From: a virus | Strand: one strand, 5' to 3' | IMG/VR virus record: IMGVR_UViG_3300023184_000123 | Location: 1-62,669 of that record | DNA length: 62,669 bases | Shown here: positions 34,899 to 62,160 of the stretch, piece by piece | How positions within the stretch are numbered: position 1 is the stretch's first letter | Layout of the letters: every line of letters starts with the position of its first letter | Position numbers and translations under genes: made by a program | Notes under the pieces: model-generated | What the model saw: only the letters and a program-made list of their open reading frames with translations | The model's database searches: none | What the model was told of the DNA's origin: nothing

Positions 34899-34899
34899 G

Positions 34900-35127
34900 T
34901 TATGTTCTCTCTTTTTTAACGCGACCAATTCGGCTCGCTTTGTTCCAATCATAGGCAATGCCATCTGGGCACAGGCCATCCTTTACTGTGTCAACGCCAA
35001 ATCTTCCAACAATTTCAAATTCACCTCCTTTGATAGAAACAAATTTATCAATCAATTTTGCATGTTCCATTGCGGAGTTCAAATCATCAAACTCTACTGC
35101 TACATTATTAAATATTACTTTGTACAT
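34900..35127 (-). CDS. Small hypothetical protein
   Basis: The 75-residue protein has a short alpha/beta pattern (MYKVIFNNVAVEFDDL) and a basic tail RIGRVKKERT. It is first in the RNA ligase operon, one base upstream of the ligase start. Function unknown. Confidence 0.65.
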   Translation of the reverse strand: MYKVIFNNVAVEFDDLNSAMEHAKLIDKFVSIKGGEFEIVGRFGVDTVKDGLCPDGIAYDWNKASRIGRVKKERT

Positions 35128-35133
35128 GTGAGT

Positions 35134-35162
35134 ATTATACAGTCAAAAAGAAACCCAGTCAA
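35134..35162 (-). promoter_or_regulatory. Sigma-70 promoter for the RNA ligase operon
   Basis: TTGACT, 17 bases, TATAAT on the minus strand. Its -35 region lies inside the terminator of the upstream TROVE-like gene, so the two signals share bases. Confidence 0.75.
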
Positions 35163-35180
35163 TCTAAGCCAACTGGGTTC
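35143..35180 (-). terminator. Intrinsic terminator of the TROVE-like gene
   Basis: The minus strand folds as AACCCAGT / ACTGGGTT around a 12-base loop, followed by TTCTTTTTG. Confidence 0.75.
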
Positions 35181-35201
35181 AGTGTTGTATTTTTACAACA
35201 G

Positions 35202-37041: not shown

Positions 37042-37119
37042 TGGAACAACGGGAGGGATTTGAACCCCCGGTTTTCAGGATTTGCAATCCCGTGCATTGG
37101 ACCTCTCTGCCACCGTTGC
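37042..37119 (-). tRNA. tRNA-Cys(GCA)
   Basis: The acceptor is GCAACGG/CCGTTGT, the anticodon loop TTGCAAA, and the discriminator T (U73, typical of tRNA-Cys) with encoded CCA. The last 15 codons of the HldD-like frame lie inside it. Confidence 0.9.
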
Positions 37120-37869: not shown

Positions 37870-38225
37870 TTTTGATTGTCGCCTTTGCCCACACGATAGT
37901 TGTCTTCCACACTGTCTGCTGTGCTGACTTCGATAACTGTGCCTTCTTCAACGCATATCAACTGATGCGGCTCCAACGGTTTGTTTCGCCAAGTGTCGCC
38001 GGGTTTGAGCACAGTAGTTGTTTGATCAGCATTTGCAGTTTCAATACTGGTCACAGTGAACAAACCGTCCAACACATACCAGGTTTCGTCTTTGACAGCA
38101 TGAAAGTGCATGCTGAACTTGGCGCCCGTGTTGAACTTCATAAGTTTGCCACAGTAGTGTTCGTTGGTGGCCCAGATCAATTCGTGGCCCCAGCCTTTTG
38201 GTACTAACCCTGATAATTGTGTCAT
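37866..38225 (-). CDS. Cupin-fold protein
   Basis: The 119-residue protein has the two cupin motifs: SMHFHAVKDETWYVLDG (HxH...E) and KPLEPHQLICVEEGTVIE (late His). This is typical of sugar-phosphate isomerase-like cupins. It overlaps both neighbours by 4 bases, within a heptose-sugar operon, so an activated-sugar role is likely but not specific. Confidence 0.75.
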   Translation of the reverse strand: MTQLSGLVPKGWGHELIWATNEHYCGKLMKFNTGAKFSMHFHAVKDETWYVLDGLFTVTSIETANADQTTTVLKPGDTWRNKPLEPHQLICVEEGTVIEVSTADSVEDNYRVGKGDNQK

Positions 38226-38983
38226 CCTATTTCCTCTAGTGTTGGAGCATAAACTCCCAAATGTTGCACAGTGACCGCACTCGCTGCATTGGCGAATGTA
38301 ATGGCTTTTTTGATATCTCCAGTGTCAAGATACTGGTAAGCTAATGCAGACAAAAAGGTATCACCTGCACCAGTCACATCCACCACTTCTACACTGGGCG
38401 CAGCAACATCTATATCATGATGAACAGCACTGGCGCCTCGACTGCCTCTAGTGACAATTAATCCGGTGCATTCACTTTTAATTCTGCTGTGTTCTAATTC
38501 GTTAATCTTTACCCAGGCACCCTGCATACGTGCTAGGTCTGTTTTCTTAGTGTCGATAAAGATAGGAATACTCAATGCAATCAGCTCTTCGATTAGTTCG
38601 TAGCTGACTGTGCCTTTGTTGTAGTCACTGATTACCACAGCATCGTACACATGGGGGATTGCAGTTTCAAATGTGATAGGCGTTGATTCAACATCCGAAT
38701 CAATACGAACAATCTGTTGTCGACTACGTTCGTCAAGGAGCCTAGTTTTGACACTGGTTTCACCATGCAAATAATTAACGTCACAGCCCAAGGCTTCTAA
38801 GTTGTTGGCCACATTACCAGCCATGCCAGCACGAGTTTCTGTGCGAGTAGGAACAAACACAGGAACAGGAGCTTCGGGGCTTAGTCTATCGATGGTACCA
38901 TACTGGTACACATCAGTACAGTTATCGCCTATTAGCAATATCTTGAATTGTGTTTGTTGTTGAGTATTCACCGACTCTGTCAT
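38222..38983 (-). CDS. HldE/RfaE kinase domain-like (PfkB family) protein
   Basis: The 253-residue protein shows LLIGDNCTDVY, TRAGMAGNVANNLEALG and VVDVTGAGDTFLSALA. The GAGD segment is the catalytic base region of PfkB/ribokinase enzymes. It matches the heptose-7-phosphate kinase half of HldE, but is shorter by about 60 residues. The separate nucleotidyltransferase gene overlaps it by 62 bases. Confidence 0.8.
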   Translation of the reverse strand: MTESVNTQQQTQFKILLIGDNCTDVYQYGTIDRLSPEAPVPVFVPTRTETRAGMAGNVANNLEALGCDVNYLHGETSVKTRLLDERSRQQIVRIDSDVESTPITFETAIPHVYDAVVISDYNKGTVSYELIEELIALSIPIFIDTKKTDLARMQGAWVKINELEHSRIKSECTGLIVTRGSRGASAVHHDIDVAAPSVEVVDVTGAGDTFLSALAYQYLDTGDIKKAITFANAASAVTVQHLGVYAPTLEEIG

Positions 38984-39323
38984 AAAATATCACTTGATCA
39001 ACATGTTGTTGTGCCACTATACTTTTGCCCCGCCAGTCACTGCCCTTGACCATGATGTTGGGTTTGTACAGTTTAATTAAATCCACTAACTCTTCACGTG
39101 TGTTAAAGATCTCAACATGGTCTACACATTTTAAACTGTTCAGCATGAACTGTCTATCAGTTTGAGTGTTTATGGGACGAGTAGCACCTTTGAGTTCTTT
39201 CACACGAGCGTCGGAATCTATACAAACCAAAAGATAGTCACCTTGACTTTTTGCATAGTGCAACATTTCTAAATGTCCACGATGCAAGATATCAAATGTT
39301 CCGTTTACAATTACTTTGGTCAT
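38922..39323 (-). CDS. HldE/RfaE nucleotidyltransferase domain-like protein
   Basis: The 133-residue protein has the nucleotidyltransferase motif NGTFDILHRGHLEML (HxGH) and KGSDWRGKSIV, as in the adenylyltransferase half of HldE, which makes ADP-heptose. Kinase and transferase are one fused protein in most bacteria and are split here. Together with the HldD-like gene, this covers three of the steps to ADP-L-glycero-D-manno-heptose. Confidence 0.85.
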   Translation of the reverse strand: MTKVIVNGTFDILHRGHLEMLHYAKSQGDYLLVCIDSDARVKELKGATRPINTQTDRQFMLNSLKCVDHVEIFNTREELVDLIKLYKPNIMVKGSDWRGKSIVAQQHVDQVIFYDRVGEYSTTNTIQDIANRR

Positions 39324-39329
39324 AATATT

Positions 39330-39404
39330 TGGTACCTGGACACGGTTTCGAACCGCGGACCCTTTCCGTGTAAAGGAAACGCTCTACCCCTGAGCTATCC
39401 AGGC
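39330..39404 (-). tRNA. tRNA-Val(TAC)
   Basis: The acceptor is GCCTGGA/TCCAGGT, the anticodon loop TTTACAC, the T arm CGCGG TTCGAAA CCGTG, with A73 and encoded CCA. It lies 7 bases from the omega-like gene. Confidence 0.95.
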
Positions 39405-39411
39405 AATGTTT

Positions 39412-39693
39412 TTATCGGTGGTACTTGGCCTTGTGATCAATATTGCGATCTCCGGGTTCGTTAAATTTGATCTTCTTCATGTAGCCAGCATCAAGTTTTC
39501 CTTCTTGGAACTCTAACAATGCAGTAACAGCTGAATGCAAGTGTTCAAATTTTTCACTGTCTCGATTCTGTCGACGAATTTCACGTGCTCTAGCAGAAGC
39601 CATGATCACAAGATTGAACCTGTTGCCACCACTCTGTTCAACACACAAATCAGTATCGAGTTCTGGACTACGACTTTGAGTTTTTTTAATCAT
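39412..39693 (-). CDS. rpoZ: RNA polymerase omega-subunit-like protein
   Basis: The 93-residue protein contains GGNRFNLVIMASARAREIRR, followed after a short gap by SAVTALLEFQEGKL. These correspond to the GNRFxLVxxAxxRARQL and AxxEIxxGKL conserved parts of bacterial omega. Omega assists beta-prime folding and binds ppGpp in proteobacteria. A phage copy could alter host polymerase assembly or promoter choice. A sigma-70-type promoter lies at 39725. Confidence 0.75.
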   Translation of the reverse strand: MIKKTQSRSPELDTDLCVEQSGGNRFNLVIMASARAREIRRQNRDSEKFEHLHSAVTALLEFQEGKLDAGYMKKIKFNEPGDRNIDHKAKYHR

Positions 39694-39724
39694 AATTTAC
39701 CTTAGTACCCTTTGTTAAAATGTT

Positions 39725-39753
39725 ATTATACACAGTGTTTGTAACAAAGTCAA
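39725..39753 (-). promoter_or_regulatory. Sigma-70 promoter for the omega-like gene
   Basis: TTGACT, 17 bases, TATAAT on the minus strand, 31 bases before the start codon. Confidence 0.75.
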
Positions 39754-39777
39754 CTTCAAAAATAGTACAAACACAAA

Positions 39778-40854
39778 CTATCCAATAATTTTTAAAACTT
39801 CTAAAAACGTATCTTTATAGGATACATTTCGTTTTTCATCCAGCATTTCCATATTTTCAATAAGTTTTTGAAATTTGCCCGGAACTTCAGGATGAGATTT
39901 TAACAAACGAGTTATAATATGATCAGTTCCAAACTTGTCTTCAATATGCTTTCTCAATTGTAACGGAGTAGCATCTATGCCCCATGTACCAAAGCATGGA
40001 CTAACTTGCAATCCAGAAAACTCATTGCTTCTGCTAGGCCATGATCTTTTTGAATGCCACGTTTCTAATTCTTTAAAATAAAAGATATTCATGGGATTAG
40101 CTGTAAACTGTATGTAAAAGCCCAGCTTGTCTTTTAATATACTATCATAGTGTAGCATGTTATGCTCTACTTTCTTCCAACTCAGTGGCCAACGTATGTA
40201 ATCAAACTGCTCATTCATTCCATCTATGCTGAATGCAAGATCGACCTGTTTAAATGTTGACCATAATTCTATTAATTCAGAATCTGGCAAAATACTACCG
40301 TTTGTGTTATAGAACACTTCTACATTTGACGGGGTAGTTACACGTTTCAAAAAATCTACATTGTGTTCACTGAGTAATGGTTCTCCACCCACAAAATCCA
40401 AACGGGTAAGTTTATCAAAGTTAGTAAAAGATATTAACTTTTGATATTGAAGCGAATAATTTTTTAATTTAGCATTAGGGTTATTTTGTTTCTGCCAAAG
40501 ACTACTAGAATGCGGCCCACAGATTGTACATGCCGCATTACATGTTAAATCGATCTGTACCGCAATGTGGTACATATCACCGTCCACTGCATCTTCTGGT
40601 ATAGAAGTTTTGGCAACTTGTCTATGACTGACTCCGTATTGGTTTTGCTCGCGTCCAAGACACTCATGGCAATTTTTTTCAGTATCGGAAAGTACATTTT
40701 TTGTAAACTGTCGTCTAACTGAAGTTAGTTGTATTTTATGTTCTATAGGCGTGGTACTTGGAGCAATCCAACAGCATGGCTGATACACAATGTTGCCATC
40801 TTTTTCAAGGAAACGAAAAGAGTTACTTAGTTTTCTACAAAATTCATTGGCCAT
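39778..40854 (-). CDS. Radical SAM/SPASM-type protein
   Basis: The 358-residue protein has an N-terminal QPCCWI and ENCHECLGRE cysteine set, then CNAACTIC and DFVGGEPLLSE, the plan of the N-terminal-cysteine subfamily. It ends just before the omega-like promoter. Its start is 17 bases from the initiator-like tRNA at 40872. Substrate unknown. Confidence 0.9.
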   Translation of the reverse strand: MANEFCRKLSNSFRFLEKDGNIVYQPCCWIAPSTTPIEHKIQLTSVRRQFTKNVLSDTEKNCHECLGREQNQYGVSHRQVAKTSIPEDAVDGDMYHIAVQIDLTCNAACTICGPHSSSLWQKQNNPNAKLKNYSLQYQKLISFTNFDKLTRLDFVGGEPLLSEHNVDFLKRVTTPSNVEVFYNTNGSILPDSELIELWSTFKQVDLAFSIDGMNEQFDYIRWPLSWKKVEHNMLHYDSILKDKLGFYIQFTANPMNIFYFKELETWHSKRSWPSRSNEFSGLQVSPCFGTWGIDATPLQLRKHIEDKFGTDHIITRLLKSHPEVPGKFQKLIENMEMLDEKRNVSYKDTFLEVLKIIG

Positions 40855-40871
40855 TTTTTGTTTCCTTGTTT

Positions 40872-40947
40872 TGGTTGCGGGACTTGGATTCGAACCACCG
40901 ACCTCTAGGTTATGAGCCTAGCCAGATACCACTTCTAACACTCTGCG
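40872..40947 (-). tRNA. tRNA-Met(CAT), degenerate initiator-like
   Basis: The anticodon arm CTAGG CTCATAA CCTAG is perfect. The acceptor CGCAGAG against TCCCGCA shows the C1xA72 mismatch of initiators, but also two internal mismatches, and the T stem is weak. It could be a decayed copy of the tRNA at 43600. Confidence 0.6.
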
Positions 40948-40953
40948 TCAACT

Positions 40954-41027
40954 TGGTGGAGGATAACAGAATCGAACTGTTACGAAGACCTTGCAAAGGT
41001 CCCAGGCTCCCATTACATCAATCCCCC
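40954..41027 (-). tRNA. tRNA-Ala(TGC)
   Basis: The acceptor is GGGGGAT/ATCCTCC with the G3-U70 alanine identity pair. The anticodon loop is TTTGCAA and CCA is encoded. Confidence 0.95.
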
Positions 41028-41032
41028 AAACT

Positions 41033-41109
41033 TGGTCGGAGTACAAGGATTCGAACCTTGGACCCCCTGGTCCCAAACCAGGTGCGCTACCAGACTGCGC
41101 TACACTCCG
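41033..41109 (-). tRNA. tRNA-Pro(TGG)
   Basis: The acceptor is CGGAGTG/TACTCCG, the anticodon stem-loop CCTGG TTTGGGA CCAGG, with encoded CCA. Confidence 0.95.
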
Positions 41110-41115
41110 AAAAAC

Positions 41116-41189
41116 TGGAGCGGGGTGCGAGAATCGAACTCGCGCTATCAGCTTGGAAGGCTGAAATCCTACCATTAAATGAACCCCGC
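41116..41189 (-). tRNA. tRNA-Gly(TCC)
   Basis: The acceptor is GCGGGGT/ACCCCGC, the loop CTTCCAA, U73, with encoded CCA. Confidence 0.95.
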
Positions 41190-41190
41190 A

Positions 41191-41284
41191 CACTTTATTA
41201 AAATACATTCATGGCTTTTGCTACGCTGGTGCCCTGTCCTTACTACCCATCTTATAGATAAGTTAAATGTATTTTAATAAAGTG
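41191..41284 (-). ncRNA. Structured non-coding element closed by a 19-bp inverted repeat
   Basis: Positions 41191-41209 and 41266-41284 are perfect inverted repeats of 19 bases enclosing 56 bases. No ORF or tRNA fits inside. It lies directly upstream of tRNA-Gly on the minus strand and would form a long hairpin in the tRNA precursor. Confidence 0.55.
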
Positions 41285-41490
41285 TCCGGCCACTCACACC
41301 ACATGAGCCCCGGACTGAGCAGTTACTCTGTCCATAACATTTGTTCTTCTGGAAAGGTGCTAAACCTCACCCAATGCGTTCCCGCCACTCTTCAGCAGAG
41401 TACGGATGGTCATGGCATTGAATACCCAGCACTCTCTATGGTGACTGCCCCACCCACTTTCTTAACGGAAAAAGTGTAATCCGGGTTTCC
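41285..41490. other. Non-coding stretch between inverted repeat and tRNA-Thr
   Basis: About 200 bases without an ORF. A GTCCGG/CCGGAC pair (41284-41318) could form a hairpin. Nothing else is recognised. Confidence 0.4.
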
Positions 41491-41564
41491 TGGTGCCCCG
41501 TGACAGAATCGAACTGCCAATACCTGATTACAAAACAGGTGTTATACCACTTAACTAACAGGGC
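41491..41564 (-). tRNA. tRNA-Thr(TGT)
   Basis: The acceptor is GCCCTGT/ACGGGGC, the loop TTTGTAA with one T-T mismatch at the base of the loop, with encoded CCA. Confidence 0.9.
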
Positions 41565-41569
41565 CTATT

Positions 41570-42613
41570 TTAATTTATCTGTTTGATGTGTATGATATTA
41601 TTTTTCACAATAGAAATTGTGTCTCCTAAATCATAACCTTTAGTCATGTCATCAAACTGTTCTTTTTTAATGTTTATGGACTGACAACACACCACTGTGT
41701 TACATGGATAACCAATCTCTTCATACCGGTGTGCTTTGAGTCTTTGAATAAACACTCGTCTTGTTTCTGAATCGTGTATTTCCATCAGTGTGGATTCCAT
41801 CACATTGCCCAGCACAATGTCATTGTTGTCATCGTAGCAACAGGGATACAAGTCACCGTTGGGTGCAATAAAAACTTCTTTTTCCACACGCATTAACAAT
41901 GGGCAATCCAGTGTGGTTTGATCCACATTGATTCTGGCTCTGCCTGAAGTGATCAAACCACGTTCAGCCCATAAACCACTTTTACTGTGCTTGATAAAGA
42001 TGTCATCCGGCACAAATTTTCTAAGACTTTTCACAGTTTCTTCATATGTACTGAACGGAATCTTTCGCTTGTACTGATCCGGTTTGGTTTGCATAAACGC
42101 ATTCACACTTACAGTGTATTCAAACGCTGTCATCACATTAATAGAAAAATCAAATTTTGGATCATACACCGCACGTAGTTCTAAAAACTTTTTTACATTT
42201 TTAATAACGCCAGCATAGCTGATACCCTTGACAGCTTTGTAACTCTTGGCATCATGTCCATCAATATTGACCTGTATGCTACTGAGCAGCTTTTCTTCCA
42301 GCAAGGGTTTTGCTATCTTTGCTGACATTAGGCCAAAGTTGCTCAACAAGTTAAGTGCTGTGTTGGGTAACTTGGCTCGGATGTAGCGCACAATTTCCAA
42401 AAATTCAGGATGATACAATGCCTCGCCATTTTCGCTGAGATGTATCATTTTGATTGGATTTGGAAACGCAGGATCAGCTGCTTCGTCGATGATCTTCTTT
42501 ACCACATCAAACGGCATGTCAAAATTGTGTTTGGTGCCACGCGATGTGGGACACCAAATACAAGTGGCGTTACAGCGATTGGACAATGCTAGATTGATGC
42601 AATCAATTGACAT
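41570..42613 (-). CDS. Radical SAM/SPASM protein
   Basis: The 347-residue protein has CNATCIWC at residues 14-21, HLSENGEALYHP in the GEP position and a SPASM-type C-terminus (CPLLMRVEKEVFIAPNGDLY then CC, later CNTVVCC). This C-terminus is typical of peptide- or protein-modifying enzymes. It lies within the tRNA bank, 5 bases from tRNA-Thr. Confidence 0.9.
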   Translation of the reverse strand: MSIDCINLALSNRCNATCIWCPTSRGTKHNFDMPFDVVKKIIDEAADPAFPNPIKMIHLSENGEALYHPEFLEIVRYIRAKLPNTALNLLSNFGLMSAKIAKPLLEEKLLSSIQVNIDGHDAKSYKAVKGISYAGVIKNVKKFLELRAVYDPKFDFSINVMTAFEYTVSVNAFMQTKPDQYKRKIPFSTYEETVKSLRKFVPDDIFIKHSKSGLWAERGLITSGRARINVDQTTLDCPLLMRVEKEVFIAPNGDLYPCCYDDNNDIVLGNVMESTLMEIHDSETRRVFIQRLKAHRYEEIGYPCNTVVCCQSINIKKEQFDDMTKGYDLGDTISIVKNNIIHIKQIN

Positions 42614-42615
42614 GA

Positions 42616-42831
42616 TTATTCCGCGCTGACAGCACTGGTGTTGGTGACTTGATAGCCACTGGCGCCGCGTGGTGCATTCTTGTCACGACTAGGAGTTTTG
42701 ATAACAACCTCACTGCATAACTGTGCGTCGATCATGGCACGTTTCCACGCATTACGCTGTACTGGATCCACAATAGATGCTAGCAGGGTCTTTGTGGTTT
42801 TTTTCAATTTGAATGTCTTAGTGGGTTTCAT
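42616..42831 (-). CDS. Small basic hypothetical protein
   Basis: The 71-residue protein starts with a lysine/threonine-rich segment (KPTKTFKLKKTTKTLLAS) after AAAGGTAAAAC. It precedes the radical SAM gene by two bases in one operon. A role as a substrate peptide or nucleic-acid binder is possible but unsupported. Confidence 0.6.
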   Translation of the reverse strand: MKPTKTFKLKKTTKTLLASIVDPVQRNAWKRAMIDAQLCSEVVIKTPSRDKNAPRGASGYQVTNTSAVSAE

Positions 42832-42851
42832 GTTTTACCTTTTATTAAATT

Positions 42852-42941
42852 TGGCGGAACGAAAGAGACTCGAACTCTTAAAGCGGCTTTCACCACTCGA
42901 CGGATTAGCAATCCGCTCCAATACCATTATGGGACCGTTCC
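42852..42941 (-). tRNA. tRNA-Ser(GCT)
   Basis: Class II tRNA with a long variable arm, acceptor GGAACGG/TCGTTCC, loop TTGCTAA, G73 and encoded CCA. Confidence 0.95.
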
Positions 42942-42946
42942 AAATC

Positions 42947-43087
42947 TTATCTTGTTATTGCACGTATTAATTTATGCCAGTAATATCTCACACCTCGCCA
43001 AGTTGGCGCAGTATCCCAATTCCAGGCAAATCCCACTTCGTTGGGAATATTGCGGTATGCTTTATCGATAACTTCTTTGGGTGTCAT
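42947..43087 (-). CDS. Small hypothetical protein between tRNAs
   Basis: From ATG 43087, after AAAGGAAAAC, a 46-residue protein MTPKEVIDKAYRN... with a WRGVRYYWHKLIRA tail. It lies between tRNA-Leu and tRNA-Ser, suggesting co-transcription. Function unknown. Confidence 0.5.
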   Translation of the reverse strand: MTPKEVIDKAYRNIPNEVGFAWNWDTAPTWRGVRYYWHKLIRAITR

Positions 43088-43105
43088 ACTGTTTTCCTTT
43101 ACGCA

Positions 43106-43192
43106 TGGTGCGACTGGCCGGAATCGAACCGGCACGCCTGTTAGAGCGAGAGATTTTAAGTCTCTTGTGTCTACCTATTTCACCACAGTCGC
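43106..43192 (-). tRNA. tRNA-Leu(TAA)
   Basis: Class II with a long variable arm, acceptor GCGACTG/CAGTCGC, loop CTTAAAA, encoded CCA. Confidence 0.95.
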
Positions 43193-43212
43193 ATTATTTG
43201 TTACTTGTGCTT

Positions 43213-43241
43213 ATTATACTGCAAGTGTCACACAATGTCAA
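43213..43241 (-). promoter_or_regulatory. Sigma-70 promoter inside the tRNA bank
   Basis: TTGACA, 17 bases, TATAAT on the minus strand, 21 bases before tRNA-Leu(TAA). Confidence 0.8.
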
Positions 43242-43250
43242 CACTTATTT

Positions 43251-43324
43251 TGGCGTACCCACTAGGACTCGAACCTAGACTGACGGTTTTGGAGACCGCG
43301 ATGCTGCCATTACACTATGGATAC
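43251..43324 (-). tRNA. tRNA-Trp(CCA)
   Basis: The acceptor is GTATCCA/TGGGTAC, the loop CTCCAAA, G73 as in tRNA-Trp, with encoded CCA. Confidence 0.95.
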
Positions 43325-43329
43325 ATTGT

Positions 43330-43419
43330 TGGCGGAAGTAGTAGGATTCGAACCCACGGACCCTTTCGAGTCTTCAGTTTTCAAGACTGCTGCCTTAAGC
43401 CATGCTCAGCCATACTTCC
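43330..43419 (-). tRNA. tRNA-Ser(TGA)
   Basis: Class II, acceptor GGAAGTA/TACTTCC, loop CTTGAAA, G73, encoded CCA. Confidence 0.95.
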
Positions 43420-43425
43420 TTTATT

Positions 43426-43511
43426 TGGTGGATGCGGTTGGAGTCGAACCAACAGTGCCGTGAAGCGGGAGATTTACAGTCTCCTGGGGTTACCAGTTTT
43501 CCTACACATCC
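43426..43511 (-). tRNA. tRNA-Tyr(GTA)
   Basis: Class II with a long variable arm as in bacterial tRNA-Tyr, acceptor GGATGTG/CGCATCC, loop CTGTAAA, encoded CCA. Confidence 0.95.
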
Positions 43512-43517
43512 ATATTT

Positions 43518-43593
43518 TGGCTCCCCGAGTACGGATCGAACGTACGACATCTTCGTTAACAGCGAAGCGCAACTACCTCTGTGCTATCGGGGA
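43518..43593 (-). tRNA. tRNA-Asn(GTT)
   Basis: The acceptor is TCCCCGA/TCGGGGA, the loop CTGTTAA, G73, with encoded CCA. Confidence 0.95.
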
Positions 43594-43599
43594 ATTGAT

Positions 43600-43678
43600 T
43601 GGTTGCAGAGGCAGGATTCGCACCTGCGATCTCCAGCTTATGAGACTGGCGAGGACGACTGGACTCCTCTACTCTGCG
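43600..43678 (-). tRNA. Initiator tRNA-fMet(CAT)
   Basis: The acceptor CGCAGAG/CTCTGCA has the C1xA72 mismatch that marks bacterial initiators, with all other pairs intact. The loop is CTCATAA and CCA is encoded. The T loop reads TGCGAAT, an uncommon change at position 55. Confidence 0.85.
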
Positions 43679-43683
43679 ATAAT

Positions 43684-43760
43684 TGGTGCCCTGGGAGAGA
43701 CTCGAACTCTCAGCTTACGGCTTCTAAGACCGCTGTGTTTACCAATTTCACCACCGGGGC
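43684..43760 (-). tRNA. tRNA-Leu(TAG) with short variable loop
   Basis: Leu-type D arm (GTGAAATTGGTAAACAC), loop CTTAGAA, acceptor GCCCCGG/CCAGGGC and encoded CCA. The variable region is only about five bases instead of a long arm. Confidence 0.85.
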
Positions 43761-43764
43761 ATTA

Positions 43765-43848
43765 CATATAAAAACACACTCAAGTCCGCGGCACGGAAGG
43801 CACTATACCCGCAATGGTCTATGACCAGTCCTAATGTGTTTTTATATG
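43765..43848 (-). ncRNA. Structured non-coding element closed by a 14-bp inverted repeat
   Basis: CATATAAAAACACA at 43765-43778 pairs perfectly with TGTGTTTTTATATG at 43835-43848, enclosing 56 bases between tRNA-Leu and tRNA-Glu. No ORF or tRNA fits. Confidence 0.5.
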
Positions 43849-43922
43849 GCGTCCCTACGGGGATTCGAACCCCGGTACTCACCGTGAAAGGGTGATGTCC
43901 TAGGCCTCTAGACGATAGGGAC
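43847..43922 (-). tRNA. tRNA-Glu(TTC)
   Basis: The acceptor is GTCCCTA/TAGGGAC, the loop CTTTCAC, G73, with encoded CCA that overlaps the adjacent inverted repeat. Confidence 0.95.
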
Positions 43923-43977
43923 AAACTAAATTTTATATTTTTAAAGAACGTTGCTAGTGTTTGCTAGACAAGTGTTT

Positions 43978-44006
43978 ATTATACAATCTCTACTGAGCAA
44001 TGTCAA
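43978..44006 (-). promoter_or_regulatory. Sigma-70 promoter for tRNA-Glu and downstream tRNAs
   Basis: TTGACA, 17 bases, TATAAT on the minus strand. Confidence 0.8.
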
Positions 44007-44026
44007 CAACTTTTTTAAAAAATATT

Positions 44027-44101
44027 TGGCCGGCCTTGAGAGGATCGAACTCCCACCGCTGGTTTCGAAGACCAGAATGATATCCATTTCACCAAAGGCC
44101 G
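44027..44101 (-). tRNA. tRNA-Arg(TCG)
   Basis: The acceptor is CGGCCTT/AAGGCCG, the anticodon arm CTGGT CTTCGAA ACCAG, G73, with encoded CCA. Confidence 0.95.
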
Positions 44102-44108
44102 ATTTGAG

Positions 44109-44183
44109 TGGTCCGGCGTAACGGAATCGAACCGCTATTAGGGGAGTAGAAATCCCCTGTATTATCCATTATACGAACGCCAG
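44109..44183 (-). tRNA. tRNA-Arg(TCT)
   Basis: The acceptor is CTGGCGT/ACGCCGG, the loop TTTCTAC, with encoded CCA. Confidence 0.95.
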
Positions 44184-44192
44184 TGAACATGT

Positions 44193-44221
44193 ATTATACT
44201 TTATTTACCGACTGATGTCAA
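44193..44221 (-). promoter_or_regulatory. Sigma-70 promoter for tRNA-Arg(TCT)
   Basis: TTGACA, 17 bases, TATAAT on the minus strand, overlapping the stop region of the B12-binding radical SAM gene. Confidence 0.8.
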
Positions 44222-45674
44222 TGGTGTTGATTCCTAACTTTTTATTTTTGTAAGATTCCACTCTTGTTTTCATAATTCTGGCGTCGTTTTCTTCCTCTGC
44301 ACACCGATTGAGTCTCGCCGTTAAATCTCCATCAATGCCATTTGATGAAATATTCCAGCAGTTCAATGTAAATCCGTTTTCTTTTTCATACAATTCTTTA
44401 TACATTTTTTTTTGTAGTTCGATTGCTTGATTTATATTCATAAATTTATTTTGCCAAGGCAGTACAGTGTTACTGACGCCGCCGCGCTGGCCGCTGGGAT
44501 TCCAGTTAATATCACTATCCTCCATCACAGTGTAACCATACTTTTTGTAATCTGCACTTAACTTAGACAGTGTATCAAACTCCCCGACTGGTATTTCTAA
44601 TGCAAATGGAATAAATGATTGTCCCCTCCAGTTTTCTTTCAGCCAGGAGATTGTGTTTTCCGTTTGTTGTACAGTATCCTCTGGCAATCCAATGATAAAA
44701 CTCATAGTTCCTCGATAACGTCCTTTGCTGGTAAAGTAGTTTTTAGCATCTATCAACCCTGCTTTGATCTTTTCAGGATCCATTCCTTTACCAACAACTT
44801 TAACTGACTCTTTATTAAAACTTTCTATACCATAAAGGTGGCCAAGAAACCCTAATCTAGACAATTCTTCTTTATCTTCTTTTCTAGATATCATCAAGTC
44901 TGCTCTAACAAATCCAGTAAACCAAGGTTTGAACGACATTAGCTGTGTTGCGTCGGCAAACTTGGTTATTTTTTCTGTTCGATCATTAAACGTTTCGTCT
45001 GCCACAAGATAGTTAGTAACACCAAATCTATCGTAAGCATCCATCAGTTGTGTGTAATAATCCGCGGCATCTCTACTGTAATCGCCCTTTACACCCAGTA
45101 CAGGAAAATTACAAAACGCACATTTAAATTTACAACCTCTGGCAAACTCAATGCCCAACCACTCATCAGGACGAATGAAATCTCGGTCTTGATACTTCAC
45201 CATCAAACTTTTCATTGGAAATGAAGGATACATTTCATTTCCGTTGATTAATTTTTTATTGAATATAGAAAACTTTGGAAGTTCGCCGTTGCTAAAAAGC
45301 CATTTCAGCAAAACTAACAAAGCATTCTCACCAAACCCTTGAATGTAATAATCTATACACTTCGATTTGAATTGCGGAGCAACTCCTGATCCTGATATTA
45401 TCACAACATCAGGGTATTCAACTTTTAACCATGCTGTAAAGTCTTCTAAGATTTCACTCCATAGTGAAAACATGTGGCTGAATCCTATAAACTTTGTGTT
45501 TTTATCAATTCTTGATCTAGCTAGATCTTTAAACTCTTCCGGAGTCCAATACATAGCATAATCAATAATTTCAACGTCCCAGTTGTGTTCTCTAAGACAG
45601 TGTGCTATTCTGTATGCACCCACGGTCCTTCCTAGTTTTTCAGTAGATACATTGAATATCAAACATTTATACAT
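44205..45674 (-). CDS. B12-binding-domain radical SAM protein
   Basis: From ATG 45674 the 489-residue protein starts with a cobalamin-binding-like Rossmann half (LIFNVSTEKLGRTVGAYRIA, DVVIISGSGVAPQF), then radical SAM ARGCKFKCAFCNFP and SFIIGLPEDT. This two-domain order matches class B enzymes that often methylate unactivated carbons. The Dx(H)xxG cobalamin histidine is not visible. The start lies four bases after TGTAAATA. Confidence 0.85.
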   Translation of the reverse strand: MYKCLIFNVSTEKLGRTVGAYRIAHCLREHNWDVEIIDYAMYWTPEEFKDLARSRIDKNTKFIGFSHMFSLWSEILEDFTAWLKVEYPDVVIISGSGVAPQFKSKCIDYYIQGFGENALLVLLKWLFSNGELPKFSIFNKKLINGNEMYPSFPMKSLMVKYQDRDFIRPDEWLGIEFARGCKFKCAFCNFPVLGVKGDYSRDAADYYTQLMDAYDRFGVTNYLVADETFNDRTEKITKFADATQLMSFKPWFTGFVRADLMISRKEDKEELSRLGFLGHLYGIESFNKESVKVVGKGMDPEKIKAGLIDAKNYFTSKGRYRGTMSFIIGLPEDTVQQTENTISWLKENWRGQSFIPFALEIPVGEFDTLSKLSADYKKYGYTVMEDSDINWNPSGQRGGVSNTVLPWQNKFMNINQAIELQKKMYKELYEKENGFTLNCWNISSNGIDGDLTARLNRCAEEENDARIMKTRVESYKNKKLGINTIDISR

Positions 45675-45678
45675 CCTA

Positions 45679-45686
45679 TATTTACA
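45679..45686 (-). promoter_or_regulatory. Late-type TGTAAATA box, four bases before ATG
   Basis: TGTAAATA then TAGG then ATG on the minus strand, before the B12-binding radical SAM gene. Confidence 0.5.
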
Positions 45687-45690
45687 TAAA

Positions 45691-45768
45691 TGGTACCCCA
45701 CCCCTGATTCGAACAGGGAGAACTTCTCCTTTTGAGAGAGATGACTTTACCAATTTGTCCAGTGGGGC
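45691..45768 (-). tRNA. tRNA-Leu(CAA) with short variable loop
   Basis: The acceptor is GCCCCAC/GTGGGGT, the D arm Leu-like (GGACAAATTGGTAAAGTC), the loop CTCAAAA, with encoded CCA. The variable region is about six bases, not a long arm. Confidence 0.8.
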
Positions 45769-45780
45769 ATAAATATTTTT

Positions 45781-45945
45781 GTGAAAACACACGATCACAT
45801 AACATCTCAAGGATTGTATTTTCATCTTTGTTTGTACCAAGGTGTGTGTTGCGTCATGGTACAAGATGTGTACGACAACACCTACTTTGAAATGCAGTAC
45901 TTCACTGATGTCAACAAAGCATTGCGCTATATCAACAATCTCTAA
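45781..45945 (+). CDS. Possible 54-residue protein within the tRNA bank
   Basis: A GTG-started plus-strand frame (KTHDHITSQGLYFHLC...) has an amphipathic C-terminus FTDVNKALRYINNL. It is the only plus-strand candidate among minus-strand tRNAs. No strong ribosome-binding site is seen; an internal ATG at 45856 gives a 29-residue version. It ends one base before the tRNA at 45947. Confidence 0.4.
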   Translation: MKTHDHITSQGLYFHLCLYQGVCCVMVQDVYDNTYFEMQYFTDVNKALRYINNL

Positions 45946-45946
45946 A

Positions 45947-46038
45947 TGGTACCAGCGGAGGGAATCAAACCCTCTCAAGAACGCTAATCTGGCGCTAAAA
46001 GTCTTATAAGGACTCTCTGACTGTCAAGTCTCGCTGGC
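45947..46038 (-). tRNA. Class II-like tRNA with TAT anticodon
   Basis: The acceptor is GCCAGCG/CGCTGGT, the loop CTTATAA and CCA is encoded, but a long variable arm is present, which tRNA-Ile normally lacks. Position 8 is A rather than T. The isotype (Ile by anticodon, Leu/Ser by form) is therefore uncertain. Confidence 0.75.
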
Positions 46039-46045
46039 ATTGTTG

Positions 46046-46120
46046 TGGTCTCCTTGGCGGGAATCGAACCCACATTTACTCTTTAGGAGAGAGTGGTTCT
46101 ATCCATTGAACTACAAGGAG
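46046..46120 (-). tRNA. tRNA-Arg(CCT)
   Basis: The acceptor is CTCCTTG/CAAGGAG, the anticodon arm ACTCT CTCCTAA AGAGT, with encoded CCA. Confidence 0.95.
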
Positions 46121-46125
46121 ATGTT

Positions 46126-46201
46126 TGGAGCGGGTGATCGGGATCGAACCGACGACAATCACGTTGGCAACGTGGCGCTCTACCAACTGAGCTACACCCG
46201 C
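46126..46201 (-). tRNA. tRNA-Gly(GCC)
   Basis: The acceptor is GCGGGTG/CACCCGC, the loop TTGCCAA, U73, with encoded CCA. Confidence 0.95.
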
Positions 46202-46211
46202 ATAAAAGATA

Positions 46212-46456
46212 TTAGTAGAAAACACTAGAGGTTTTTGGTTCACGAGAGTGCAACTTGCCTACCCGGGCTTTACAGGCCCGCCTCATTTGTCTAGCAAACA
46301 TGGAGCACCTTTACTGCCCAATCCAGAATCTTTGACTGTAAATCATTATTCTTTCAACAGCTCGCATGCAGTTTATAACTACCTTTTCTCCGCAACGTTC
46401 CGTGTTACAAATACTTGTCTTTTCAGAATGCTTGTATGCTTTGTGTTTTCTACTAA
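46212..46456 (-). ncRNA. Structured non-coding region closed by a 14-bp inverted repeat
   Basis: TTAGTAGAAAACAC at 46212-46225 pairs with GTGTTTTCTACTAA at 46443-46456, enclosing 217 bases. A GGGC/GCCC hairpin lies near 46265. Short frames inside look like chance, so this is a candidate structured RNA of about 245 bases. Confidence 0.5.
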
Positions 46457-46737
46457 CAACTCTATTTAATAAAATGTCAAGTTGTTTACCGCACAACCTG
46501 ACAAAGCGGGGGTCTGTTGAATTTGTAAGTAGTGCTACCACATTATAAGCACCATTCACCCGAATTAACAAGCTCGAGCGGGATTCGGTAAGTCACTTAG
46601 GATACTAGTCCAGTTTGTCTCCGTTTCAGACACCACCCTTGCGAGTGGTTGGGAGTTGAACCCATCACCTTCTACTGCTTCGGTCCTTCGAAGAAACCTA
46701 GACAGAATGACATTCTCTTGCTGACACTTACAAAACT
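46457..46737. other. Non-coding stretch with a tRNA-like relic
   Basis: About 280 bases without a convincing gene. Positions 46645-46710 hold a T-arm-like TGGG TTCAACT CCCA and an anticodon-like CTTCGAA loop on the minus strand. No acceptor stem can be formed, so this is probably a decayed tRNA. Confidence 0.4.
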
Positions 46738-46827
46738 TGGAGGAAGAAGGAGGAATTGAACCCCGGCCAGCTAATGCCAACCGCCTGTTTTCCAAACAGG
46801 TGTAGTAACCATACTACCGCATCTTCC
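46738..46827 (-). tRNA. tRNA-Ser(GGA)
   Basis: Class II, acceptor GGAAGAT/TTCTTCC, anticodon arm CCTGT TTGGAAA ACAGG, encoded CCA. The discriminator is U rather than the usual G73 of tRNA-Ser. Confidence 0.9.
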
Positions 46828-46832
46828 ATGAT

Positions 46833-46908
46833 TGGTACACCCTGTTGGAATCGAACCAACTTCCACGGTTCTTCAAACCGCCGCTATGACCACATCAGCT
46901 AAAGGTGC
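46833..46908 (-). tRNA. tRNA-Phe(GAA)
   Basis: The acceptor is GCACCTT/AGGGTGT, the loop TTGAAGA, A73, with encoded CCA. Confidence 0.95.
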
Positions 46909-46915
46909 ATATACT

Positions 46916-46989
46916 TGGTAGTTCCTGAAAGAATTGAACTTTCATCTGCGCGATGTCAACGCACTGTTCTTCCATTAAACTAAGGAACT
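46916..46989 (-). tRNA. tRNA-Val(GAC)
   Basis: The acceptor is AGTTCCT/AGGAACT, the loop TTGACAT, A73, with encoded CCA. Confidence 0.95.
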
Positions 46990-46991
46990 AA

Positions 46992-47087
46992 AATCTACTT
47001 AGGGGTGACCACTGGGAATTGAACCCAGATAAGCGGAATCACAATCCACGACTTTACCATTAAGTTATGGCCACACCTAAGTAGATT
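46992..47087 (-). repeat. 12-bp inverted repeats flanking tRNA-His
   Basis: AATCTACTTAGG (46992-47003) and CCTAAGTAGATT (47076-47087) are perfect inverted repeats immediately outside the acceptor stem. A helix of about 20 bp would sheath the tRNA ends in the precursor. Confidence 0.75.
47004..47074 (-). tRNA. tRNA-His(GTG), CCA not encoded
   Basis: The acceptor is GTGGCCA/TGGTCAC, the loop TTGTGAT and C73. The bases after C73 read CCT, so the CCA must be added. Flanking 12-bp inverted repeats extend the acceptor stem. Confidence 0.9.
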
Positions 47088-47092
47088 AAAAT

Positions 47093-47167
47093 TGGTACCG
47101 CCAAAAGGAATCAAACCTCTATTCCCACGTTCGTAGCGTAGTGTATTATTCATTATACTATGGCGAT
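47093..47167 (-). tRNA. tRNA-Arg(ACG)
   Basis: The acceptor is ATCGCCA/TGGCGGT, the anticodon arm CTACG CTACGAA CGTGG, with encoded CCA. Decoding of CGN as in bacteria would need A34-to-I editing. Confidence 0.9.
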
Positions 47168-47172
47168 ATATT

Positions 47173-47250
47173 TGGCAGAGGAAGTGGGATTCGAACCCAC
47201 GATGACGATTTCAAAGACCGTTGCCTTAGGCCGGGCTAGGCGATTCCCCA
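47173..47250 (-). tRNA. tRNA-Gln(TTG)
   Basis: The acceptor TGGGGAA/TTCCTCT has an open 1-72 pair, as expected for tRNA-Gln. The loop is CTTTGAA, with G73 and encoded CCA. Confidence 0.95.
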
Positions 47251-47256
47251 ACAATT

Positions 47257-47332
47257 TGGTAGTAACGGTGGGACTCGAACCCACGATAAACACCGTATGA
47301 AGGTGGTGCATTAGCCACTATGCTACGTTACC
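47257..47332 (-). tRNA. tRNA-Met(CAT), elongator or Ile2-type
   Basis: The acceptor is GGTAACG/CGTTACT, the loop TTCATAC, with encoded CCA. There is no C1xA72 mismatch. Lysidine-modified tRNA-Ile2 cannot be excluded. Confidence 0.9.
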
Positions 47333-47460
47333 ATAGAAAAACACACTCGGCTCTCCTTACAACCTTGTTCCTGTCAATTCAGGATGAAACTGGATGAACC
47401 CAGAGGCTCCCCTTGGTTGTTTGTATCTGTCAATTCAGATTGAAAGTGTGTTTATCTATG
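47332..47460 (-). ncRNA. Structured non-coding element closed by a 16-base inverted repeat
   Basis: Positions 47332-47347 and 47445-47460 pair at 15 of 16 bases. Two direct repeats (CTGTCAATTCAG) lie inside. The element fills the space between tRNA-Met and tRNA-Lys. Confidence 0.5.
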
Positions 47461-47534
47461 GTAGGACCGCTGGGACTCGAACCCAGAATTGGCAGATTAA
47501 AAGTCTGCTGTGATAACCATTTCACCACGATCCC
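47459..47534 (-). tRNA. tRNA-Lys(TTT)
   Basis: The acceptor is GGGATCG/CGGTCCT, the anticodon arm GCAGA CTTTTAA TCTGC, with encoded CCA. Confidence 0.95.
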
Positions 47535-47538
47535 ATAT

Positions 47539-47614
47539 TGGTCCCTAGCGACAGATTCGAACTGTCACCTCATCGGTTAAGAGCCGAGTACGCTACCGTT
47601 AACGCCAGCTAGGG
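47539..47614 (-). tRNA. tRNA-Lys(CTT)
   Basis: The acceptor is CCCTAGC/GCTAGGG, the loop CTCTTAA, with encoded CCA. Confidence 0.95.
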
Positions 47615-47697
47615 TTAGTTGTATTAAATTGATTTAATGTGCCAACCCTAGACCAATACGGGATCTAGAGCGACACTAACGTTTAGCACGTTTCATG

Positions 47698-47826
47698 CTA
47701 TTCTCCTTTGTTGATATTACGCTTTTGTGCTTGGCGTTCTGATTTCCAGAACACTCGTTTCCAATCTTTCAAATGCTTCCACCATTGTGGACTGCGTGTT
47801 AGAATACCTTGTTGTTTATGTGCCAT
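47698..47826 (-). CDS. Small basic protein (42 aa)
   Basis: The frame from ATG 47826 encodes a basic, tryptophan-containing peptide (RSPQWWKHLKDWKRVFWKS). It overlaps the stop of the 31-residue ORF at 47816 by 11 bases. Its last codons AAAGGAGAA form a ribosome-binding site for a further possible 6-codon frame MKRAKR at 47676-47696. Function unknown; such peptides may bind nucleic acid or membranes. Confidence 0.55.
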   Translation of the reverse strand: MAHKQQGILTRSPQWWKHLKDWKRVFWKSERQAQKRNINKGE

Positions 47827-47911
47827 AAAGTGACCCCCTGTACTGACCACAAAGATCAGTCCATGCTAGAATCTCTTTTTCATTTAGCTTCATTGATTCA
47901 ATCCAAGACAT
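47816..47911 (-). CDS. Small protein (31 aa)
   Basis: ATG at 47911 follows TAAAGGAGACATCT, an excellent ribosome-binding site, and opens SWIESMKLNEKEILAWTDLC. It lies directly downstream of element copy 4, which would be its 5' leader. Function unknown. Confidence 0.55.
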   Translation of the reverse strand: MSWIESMKLNEKEILAWTDLCGQYRGSLYGT

Positions 47912-47927
47912 AGATGTCTCCTTTATA

Positions 47928-47990
47928 AAACAGGATGCTTATTTTTCAATTAAAAGTTGAATTTTTGAATTTGCTGTTCGCATCCTAAAA
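47928..47990 (-). repeat. Covarying RNA element, copy 4
   Basis: The terminal stem is GGATGC/GCATCC with the conserved AACAGCAA and ATCCTGTTTT. It is followed after three bases by the ribosome-binding site of the 31-residue ORF and lies just downstream of tRNA-Thr(GGT). Confidence 0.65.
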
Positions 47991-47991
47991 T

Positions 47992-48065
47992 TGGTGCTCT
48001 AACGTAGAATCAAACTACGATTCCTGTCATACCAAGACAGTGTTCTATCATTAAACTATAAGAGC
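47992..48065 (-). tRNA. tRNA-Thr(GGT)
   Basis: The acceptor is GCTCTTA/TTAGAGC with one mismatch, the anticodon arm CTGTC TTGGTAT GACAG, with encoded CCA. Confidence 0.9.
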
Positions 48066-48071
48066 AAAAAT

Positions 48072-48147
48072 TGGTCTCTCTGCTAGGATTCGAACCTAGA
48101 CCACACGGCCCCAAACCGTGTACGCAACCTGATAACGCTTCAAAGAG
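48072..48147 (-). tRNA. tRNA-Pro(TGG), second copy
   Basis: The acceptor is CTCTTTG/CAGAGAG, the anticodon arm CACGG TTTGGGG CCGTG, with encoded CCA. It differs from the copy at 41033. Confidence 0.9.
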
Positions 48148-48154
48148 ATAAAAT

Positions 48155-48229
48155 TGGTGGAGGCCGAGGGAATCGAACCCTTCTAGACAAGATGCTTGCA
48201 AGGCAACTCCGTAGCCCACTACTGCCCCC
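48155..48229 (-). tRNA. tRNA-Ala(TGC), second copy
   Basis: The acceptor GGGGGCA/GGCCTCC keeps the G3-U70 pair. The loop is CTTGCAA and CCA is encoded. One acceptor and one anticodon-stem mismatch are present. Confidence 0.85.
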
Positions 48230-48236
48230 AATTAAA

Positions 48237-48292
48237 AAACACATTCACCCGAATGGACATTGTCACCTCCGCCTGCTGTCGGAAATGTGTTT
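48237..48292 (-). ncRNA. Short non-coding element closed by a 9-bp inverted repeat
   Basis: AAACACATT (48237-48245) and AATGTGTTT (48284-48292) enclose 38 bases between tRNA-Ala and tRNA-Glu, using the same AAACAC-type arm as the larger elements. Confidence 0.4.
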
Positions 48293-48298
48293 GTTGAT

Positions 48299-48373
48299 TG
48301 GTACTGTCGACGGGTATCGATCCCGCTTCTCCACCTTGAAAGGGTAGCGTCCTAGCCACTAGACGACAACAGT
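48299..48373 (-). tRNA. tRNA-Glu(TTC), second copy
   Basis: The acceptor is ACTGTTG/CGACAGT, the loop CTTTCAA, with encoded CCA. The T loop is ATCGATA rather than TTCGAAT, so it is divergent. Confidence 0.85.
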
Positions 48374-48378
48374 GTAAA

Positions 48379-48445
48379 AAACAGGATAGCATTTTTGGCT
48401 TTTTTTCAAGAAAAGGTTTTTAATGTTTGCTGTTGCTATCCTAAA
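48379..48445 (-). repeat. Covarying RNA element, copy 5
   Basis: The terminal stem is GGATAGC/GCTATCC, with AACAGCAA and ATCCTGTTTTTTA conserved. It lies between tRNA-Ile and tRNA-Glu on the minus strand. Confidence 0.65.
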
Positions 48446-48447
48446 CT

Positions 48448-48521
48448 TGGTTCCCAGAGCAAGAATCGAACTTGCGAAGACCGGTTATCAGCCGATTATT
48501 ATACCATTTAATTATCCGGGA
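48448..48521 (-). tRNA. tRNA-Ile(GAT)
   Basis: The acceptor is TCCCGGA/TCTGGGA, the anticodon arm ATCGG CTGATAA CCGGT, with encoded CCA. Confidence 0.95.
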
Positions 48522-48526
48522 AAATT

Positions 48527-48601
48527 TGGCGGCTCCAAGGAGAATCGAACTCCTATTAATGGCGTGACAAGCCACCGTACTGACCATTATACTATGAAGC
48601 C
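48527..48601 (-). tRNA. tRNA-Asp(GTC)
   Basis: The acceptor is GGCTTCA/TGGAGCC, the loop TTGTCAC, G73, with encoded CCA. Confidence 0.95.
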
Positions 48602-61742: not shown

Positions 61743-61957
61743 CTAGTTATTGGTTTACAAGGTGACTAACCCCGGAGTTGCGGTTTCTTAGGCCGCCATT
61801 TCCAATTCTGCTTCATTAGCAGCTGCCAATGTCACAGGAACTTGGAAATACTCGAATGTAGATGTTTTTGCATTTACGTTTATTTGCTTGATTTACAGTC
61901 ATCGCCTACTGAGTTGCCGTCTCTATTATCTCACCCTGTCGAAACCATGGCAGGCCC
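61743..61957 (-). ncRNA. ssrA: tmRNA, 5' (coding) piece of a circularly permuted gene
   Basis: The minus strand starts GGGCCTGCCATGGTTTCGAC, the canonical 5' end of tmRNA. It contains a tag frame at 61788-61826 coding A-AANEAELEMAA then TAA. Its GGGCCTG pairs with CAGGTCC of the acceptor piece, giving the G3-U70 alanine identity. In this gene the acceptor piece comes first, so the mature RNA would be two pieces, as in alphaproteobacteria, cyanobacteria and some betaproteobacteria. The 3' end of this piece is approximate. Confidence 0.9.
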
Positions 61958-61958
61958 A

Positions 61959-62078
61959 TCATAAGGAAACTTTTCGCCAGTAAGTGGTAAAGTCCGGAGT
62001 AATAACATATTCCCAGCCTGGACGAATATGTTCTGGGTGTATACTTTCTTTACCGTTACTATGTTTGAAAAATTTCAT
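61959..62078 (-). CDS. 39-residue ORF inside the tmRNA intervening segment
   Basis: ATG at 62078, three bases after the AAGGAAG sequence, opens KFFKHSNGKESIHPEHIRPG, followed by WEYVITPDFTTYWRK to TGA at 61959. It fills the whole segment between the two tmRNA pieces. The composition looks protein-like. Its ribosome-binding site and stop lie in a 12-bp helix of the precursor (62079-62090 with 61961-61972), which would hide the start. Function unknown. Confidence 0.6.
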   Translation of the reverse strand: MKFFKHSNGKESIHPEHIRPGWEYVITPDFTTYWRKVSL

Positions 62079-62089
62079 AAACTTCCTTA

Positions 62090-62160
62090 TGGTGGACCTG
62101 GCGGGAGTCGAACCCGCGTCCAGAATGCCTTCACTTTGAAGGGATTACAACTATTCTTTT
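62090..62160 (-). ncRNA. ssrA: tmRNA, 3' (acceptor) piece of a circularly permuted gene
   Basis: The minus strand contains GCGGG TTCGACT CCCGC (T arm), CAGGTCC, A73 and encoded CCA at 62090-62092. Upstream is the hairpin CCTTCA AAG TGAAGG. This is the 3' end of tmRNA, placed upstream of the coding piece, which is the signature of the permuted form. The 5' boundary near 62160 is approximate. Confidence 0.9.

Follow-up and report, generated by a model that had tools for sequence, protein, structure and literature searches.

The DNA analysed here is a virus sequence of 62,669 nucleotides (IMG/VR record IMGVR_UViG_3300023184_000123, positions 1 to 62,669; hereafter, the window), in which the intervening sequence (IVS) of a permuted transfer-messenger RNA (tmRNA) gene holds an open reading frame (ORF) of 39 codons. 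Judging from comparisons among viral contigs, the IVS of permuted tmRNAs is, in many uncultured phages, a slot for unrelated, exchangeable small protein genes, and it is very probable that one transcript acts first as the mRNA of such a cargo gene and then as the precursor of a two-piece tmRNA. A sequence-only reading of the window had placed the ORF and an AAGGAAG ribosome-binding site in the IVS and had proposed that making the peptide might be linked to tmRNA maturation; the coordinates hold, on the minus strand, and a link between maturation and translation would be plausible.

A protein gene in the intervening sequence

The tmRNA locus lies entirely on the minus strand. Rfam family RF04321 matches 62152-61788 (129 bits, E 6e-25, model positions 1-213), the beta-type family RF01850 likewise matches, and ARAGORN agrees with Rfam that the gene is permuted and on this strand. 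The acceptor piece (62090-62152), which is 5′-most and comprises the T arm and the 3′ acceptor strand CAGGTCC-ACCA, is upstream of the coding piece (61788-61957), which begins with the 5′ acceptor strand GGGCCTG and ends with the tag, and both pieces fit the RF04321 covariance model. The encoded CCA ends at 62090 and the mature 5′ strand begins at 61957; between them lies the IVS of 132 nt (61958-62089). The cargo ORF (61959-62078; MKFFKHSNGKESIHPEHIRPGWEYVITPDFTTYWRKVSL) encodes 39 amino acids, starts with ATG, and ends with a TGA that sits 1 base ahead of GGGCCTG. Its Shine-Dalgarno sequence AAGGAAG (62082-62088) directly follows the CCA, 3 nt ahead of the ATG, with the AAGGA core 5 nt ahead, which is a usable spacing; we found neither a promoter nor a terminator belonging to this ORF. 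Since an ORF like this one arises by chance in 1.9% of shuffles with the arms of the surrounding helix held fixed, the window taken singly is suggestive rather than conclusive.

The comparison with relatives carries the argument further. One related locus, L137, has a homologous ORF in its IVS, with a peptide that is 90% identical and no indels, and the ratio of non-synonymous to synonymous substitution rates (dN/dS) between the two is 0.24 (5.5 changes at 22 synonymous sites and 6.5 at 95 non-synonymous sites). To sample permuted tmRNAs, we searched viral contigs with a tmRNA core, CTGCCATGGTTTCGACAGG, that is blind to the content of the IVS (119 loci), with a pattern requiring a ribosome-binding site right after the CCA (95 loci), with the same binding-site pattern for the CTCCACCA acceptor type (43 loci), and with the core of this second acceptor type (120 loci), and parsed a total of 280 loci with a permuted tmRNA. 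In the IVS-blind samples, we counted an ORF if it had a ribosome-binding site and covered no less than 60% of the IVS. By this rule, ORFs occur in 36 of the 84 distinct GGGCC-type IVSs and in 3 of the 89 GGGG-type ones; the trait is therefore common in the tmRNA lineage of the window and sporadic elsewhere. These counts depend on the chosen thresholds, and ORFs with poor binding sites, such as those in L276 and L336, went uncounted. About 70 distinct IVSs carry the cargo-ORF architecture, and 68 of the 70 ORFs start with ATG.

Among IVSs of at least 120 nt in the IVS-blind sample, 17 of 20 have an ATG near the start and remain open to the end, where shuffles would give 0.25, and for those of at least 80 nt, the corresponding figures are 36 of 52 and 2.5. 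The ribosome-binding site and the ORF also co-occur in this sample (Fisher p 7e-9). For 14 homologous IVS pairs pooled, the ORF frame has a ratio of non-synonymous to synonymous differences per site (pN/pS) of 0.34 and 0 stops (p 5e-13, a value that is indicative only, because some pairs share one family and are not fully independent), whereas the other two frames give 1.03 and 1.17, with 45 and 46 stops; the misaligned pairs L231/L366 and L042/L054 and other gapped pairs were left out. Where homologues aligned as proteins have gaps, these comprise whole codons. Thus, the check for a conserved reading frame that the sequence-only reading had called for revealed frame-specific purifying selection, and these comparisons of sequence show the slot ORFs to be protein-coding, with selection acting in the ORF frame only. 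Spacers that keep the helix and break the frame, which the same reading had named as damaging to its case, do occur when unrelated spacers are compared; within a cargo family, the frame stays intact in every case. An open frame of chance origin in the discarded spacer, to which the shuffles would give about 2% for this one IVS and which would suit a window ORF that has no database relatives, is contradicted by the pooled tests already and also by the conservation in L137, the frame-specific selection and the many parallel cases; we find it hardly credible.

The window peptide itself offers little to compare. It has no match in Pfam or PHROG, a tblastn search in phages for a free-standing homologue gave only two weak partial matches (E 2), and a search with the degenerate motif HPEHIRPG recovered L137 alone. 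AlphaFold models the 39-residue protein mainly as strands with middling confidence (predicted local distance difference test score 69.5), which suggests a small strand-rich fold and nothing more specific. Its most likely role is that of a small accessory protein of the phage with no connection to trans-translation.

The precursor helix and the ribosome-binding site

The ends of the cargo gene and the arms of an RNA helix are the same bases. As the sequence-only reading had proposed, 62079-62090 pairs with 61961-61972 over 12 pairs, two of them G-U, and the helix continues through ACCA/UGAU, with one C-A mismatch, into the seven-pair acceptor stem formed by GGGCCTG (61957-61951) and CAGGTCC, for a total of about 21 pairs with one mismatch. 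The 5′ arm contains the ribosome-binding site, and the 3′ arm also specifies the C-terminal residues VSL and supplies the first base of the stop. The start region had been described as hidden in this helix, which is correct for the binding site and for the run of T that precedes the start codon; the ATG falls just beyond the 12 pairs. The arms covary in relatives: an IVS's own arms pair at 10.4 of 11 positions in coding and 10.3 of 11 in non-coding IVSs, against 8.6 and 6.6 for swapped arms, and changes on both sides are seen in coding IVSs at positions 1, 6, 7, 8, 10 and 11 and in non-coding IVSs at every position. The binding site thus sits in a real precursor helix, as had been claimed. The notion that this helix serves the ORF did not survive, since most permuted phage tmRNAs retain the helix and have no ORF; because these ORF-less relatives share it, the helix is a general feature of tmRNA precursors and not an ORF-specific switch.

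The gene appears instead to be adapted to a pre-existing helix. Coding helices are weaker than non-coding ones (−5.6 vs −9.4 kcal/mol) and have more G-U pairs (2.46 vs 1.17 per helix), and the first G of the binding site faces U or C in a ratio of 26:12 in coding IVSs, compared with 22:57 at the same position in non-coding ones (p 5e-5). It counts against this view that the weaker pairing follows in part from having AAGGA in the arm at all. The predicted probability that the binding site is open is 0.09 with the 3′ arm and 0.55 without it in coding precursors, and for the window it is 0.03 with this arm and 0.48 without it. These predictions, in which the site is roughly half open until the 3′ arm is made and closed from then on, suggest co-transcriptional translation. 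The double use of the bases may also be seen at the protein level: of 33 cargos with a stop in the arm, 12 end in SL even though the proteins are unrelated, because the 3′ arm of the helix also encodes the C-terminus.

Cargo diversity and exchange

The 70 distinct coding IVSs form 37 groups, and with the L233 group (10 codons) probably being no gene, about 36 cargo families are left. One cargo, found in L072, L131 and L185, is a complete thioredoxin with WCGPC (Pfam E 4e-21), one family shows a CxxC...H.C pattern resembling a zinc ribbon, and many cargos have the look of a single membrane helix. Two consecutive ORFs occupy a single IVS in L186 and L187; the second ORF of L187 has its own ribosome-binding site and is homologous to the lone cargo of L157, and one second ORF weakly resembles an acetyltransferase (E 0.02).

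Near-identical contigs can bear unrelated cargos. For instance, the flanks of L051 and L060, two contigs named after different metagenomes, show 1 mismatch in 6,000 bases (3 kb to either side), and the cargos between them are unrelated; unrelated cargos are also found in L064 and L184, whose flanks are 99.4% identical downstream and less so upstream. Furthermore, homologues of three cargos are found as ordinary genes (that of the L065 cargo in L050, that of the L071 cargo in L048 and L258, and that of the L236 cargo in L279), located immediately upstream of a tmRNA with a non-coding IVS. Because unrelated cargos occur in near-identical contigs and their homologues occur as ordinary neighbouring genes, the slot can be regarded as modular and as exchanging cassettes. 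A population assembly bubble could explain a single contig pair, and this would still be real variation.

It also looks as if tRNA remnants enter the slot, judging by a tRNA T-arm motif (GGTTCGANTCC) in the non-coding IVSs of L062, L068, L075, L077, L079, L146, L305 and L326. The tRNAs that ARAGORN called inside IVSs at a relaxed threshold were mostly spurious.

One transcript as probable message and precursor

We consider it very probable that the window transcript is used twice, as outlined at the beginning, with the IVS as a slot for a small gene. Ribosomes would load on the nascent transcript while the binding site is predicted to be half open; once the 3′ arm and the 5′ acceptor strand have been transcribed, the helix would close and initiation would be shut off; and the closed helix would then join the two tmRNA halves for ribonuclease P (RNase P) and 3′ processing. 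The cargo would thus ride on tmRNA transcription, with its expression confined to the interval before folding. The competition between precursor cleavage and ribosome loading suggested by the sequence-only reading fits these data, though the helix did not arise for it. A broader version would make such tmRNA precursors a general platform for expression and exchange, where any small gene caught between the helix arms is translated from nascent RNA until the folding that leads to the mature tmRNA stops it, and where processing turns the leftover message into a non-stop substrate of that same tmRNA. We consider this version improbable on balance; if it were true, a single RNA would couple gene dose, timing and quality control.

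Translation, and not the peptide, could be what matters, as in a leader-like device whose ribosome would unwind the lengthened helix and thereby help tmRNA processing or set its timing. The binding site and the stop codon are both in or at the helix, and a ribosome at the stop would cover the 3′ arm beside the expected RNase P site. However, the amino acid sequences of cargos are conserved, the cargos include an enzyme with its active site (the thioredoxin), some IVSs have two consecutive ORFs, and the same helix occurs in many sister tmRNAs that lack an ORF, all of which makes such a device unlikely.

Another possibility is that expression is self-limiting, with the RNase P cut leaving a non-stop IVS message on which ribosomes would be subject to tagging by the tmRNA that the same transcript yields, as with arfA mRNA. 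In 33 of the 70 distinct ORFs, the stop precedes the expected cleavage site by 1 nt, and 24 of the 70 read past this site, so that the cut would leave a message without a stop. In Carsonella, smpB running into ssrA is likewise expected to yield a non-stop mRNA (PMC4131195). The remaining 13 of 70 ORFs, however, stop earlier and should escape the loop. We rate this reading as slightly less likely again than the leader-like device, and it is compatible with the twofold use of the transcript as an additional layer.

The tmRNAs that carry cargo might, finally, be decaying pseudogenes invaded by genes. The phage tmRNA is dispensable in relatives: L002 and L003, the nearest to the window by the gene neighbouring the tmRNA, which encodes 387 amino acids, show none beside that gene. 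Of the 34 contigs reached through this gene, none has a detectable tmRNA beside it. Nearly all of the cargo-bearing tmRNAs tested nevertheless score 101-136 bits in Rfam (65 for L175), with acceptor pairing and tag ends retained, and we regard decay as very improbable.

Several observations weigh against the slot reading or limit it. The cargo-bearing loci are all metagenomic, and the isolates Xanthomonas phage XacN1 and Pseudomonas phage PA_L9 have a permuted tmRNA with a non-coding IVS. The 24 distinct ORFs that have no stop within the slot continue into the body of the tmRNA, which complicates the picture of a clean slot for one gene. The window cargo has L137 as its one known homologue, and the estimate of selection for it is accordingly small, with 12 differences. 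A scan of genome contigs with the binding-site pattern returned one match, L212, which is not a tmRNA; it is no fair bacterial control, because bacterial acceptor stems differ.

Two further observations concern these loci. The permuted tmRNAs of XacN1 (L213, 1480-1900) and PA_L9 (L214, 1478-1898) are unannotated in the deposited records. The stop-less cargos (L036, L037, L247 and 21 other distinct IVSs) would gain a constant tail encoded by the tmRNA, for example DGPAMVSTG; phrog_12117 weakly matches such a tail (MGLPWFRQG region) and so may include tmRNA-derived peptides.

The tmRNA, its transcription unit and other features of the window

The window tmRNA is predicted to be cleaved into two pieces, to lose its IVS and to use SmpB. 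The folding energy of its precursor is −58.4 kcal/mol, lower than that of shuffles (z −2.4), and the acceptor stem includes the G3-U70 alanine identity pair. A group I intron core is absent, the T loop being uninterrupted and Rfam giving no match to an intron family in the window. The proteolysis tag frame (61788-61871) probably encodes 27 amino acids (AKTSTFEYFQVPVTLAAANEAELEMAA), given the resume motif TAAATGCA at 61876-61869, and has a hydrophobic end (...EAELEMAA, then the stop); ARAGORN gives only its last 12 residues. Tags apparently have 27-31 residues in part of the phage lineage (the window, L137, and L066 with ANADTFDFSAMSFTGNTVRGAANESRFALAA), about three times the usual length, while L101 and L044 retain 10 residues.

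Probably, a single transcription unit starts from a promoter, TTGCTA-17-TATAAT at 62508, takes in a cold-shock gene, the tmRNA and, between them, a 21-codon basic ORF, and ends at an intrinsic terminator at 61743-61722 (minus strand; GAAAGCACCTTCGGGTGCTTTT followed by CTTTTGAGTA). A promoter-like site of its own belongs to the downstream gene of 387 amino acids; the promoters were called solely by their match to the consensus. The cold-shock protein gene (62454-62251, minus strand) precedes the tmRNA, and such a gene is also near the tmRNA in L137, L130, L146, L155, L194 and L206, which suggests a conserved unit of the two. The 21-codon ORF (MAQKKRTPMERAARRATKKKR; 62228-62163, minus strand), just upstream of the tmRNA, has its own ribosome-binding site and homologues at the tmRNA loci L130 and L146.

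Elsewhere in the window, a cluster at 37042-48601 (minus strand) holds about 36 tRNA genes, which cover nearly all amino acids. Five radical SAM proteins are encoded at 15785-16768, 18705-19844 and 23399-24784 (plus strand) and at 25657-26928 and 44205-45701 (minus strand), one of them with a B12-binding-like domain. An RNA ligase gene adjoins a gene for a large RNA-binding protein (33870-36614, minus strand; PHROG 968 and 850), and the two are possibly an RNA repair pair.

Comparison with known systems

If the slot reading is correct, a segment deemed waste is a gene slot across a whole phage lineage, and annotation pipelines probably miss its genes because they are short and overlap an RNA gene. 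The loci also lend themselves to testing, in a natural setting, how one precursor accommodates both translation and RNA processing, and they show the arms of an RNA helix setting limits on the ends of proteins, with unrelated ones ending in ...VSL. Since permutation creates the slot, the cargo may be a reason why permuted tmRNA genes persist in phages.

Two-piece tmRNAs are known in phages, for example in Melnitz (PMC9004378). The window shares with the permuted tmRNAs of RF04321 and RF01850 the gene order, the tRNA-like domain, the tag frame and a removable IVS, but known IVSs are described as discarded sequence, whereas that of the window holds a protein gene. In its accessible part, a survey of 97,179 tmRNAs reports a tRNA-Ala and a repetitive element inside permuted IVSs and no protein genes (PMC11915505). 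We found no precedent for a protein gene in this position in the openly readable literature, and priority is accordingly uncertain.

According to the same survey, group I introns in tmRNA genes carry homing endonuclease genes (PMC11915505), which are likewise protein genes inside a segment removed from a tmRNA precursor; unlike these, the present system has no self-splicing intron, its cargo lies between the CCA and the 5′ acceptor strand, and the cargos tested are not endonucleases. In the control of arfA-type non-stop mRNAs by tmRNA (PMC10107115) and in the smpB-ssrA overlap of Carsonella (PMC4131195), the end of an mRNA is similarly set by RNA processing or by the tmRNA gene. Unlike in those cases, the window cargo is inside the tmRNA gene itself, and feedback there would be conjecture.

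Phage morons and accessory-gene hot spots are also small, exchangeable and lineage-specific genes at a fixed location. What sets the cargo genes apart from morons is that their location is inside an RNA gene and that their ends double as a structural helix.
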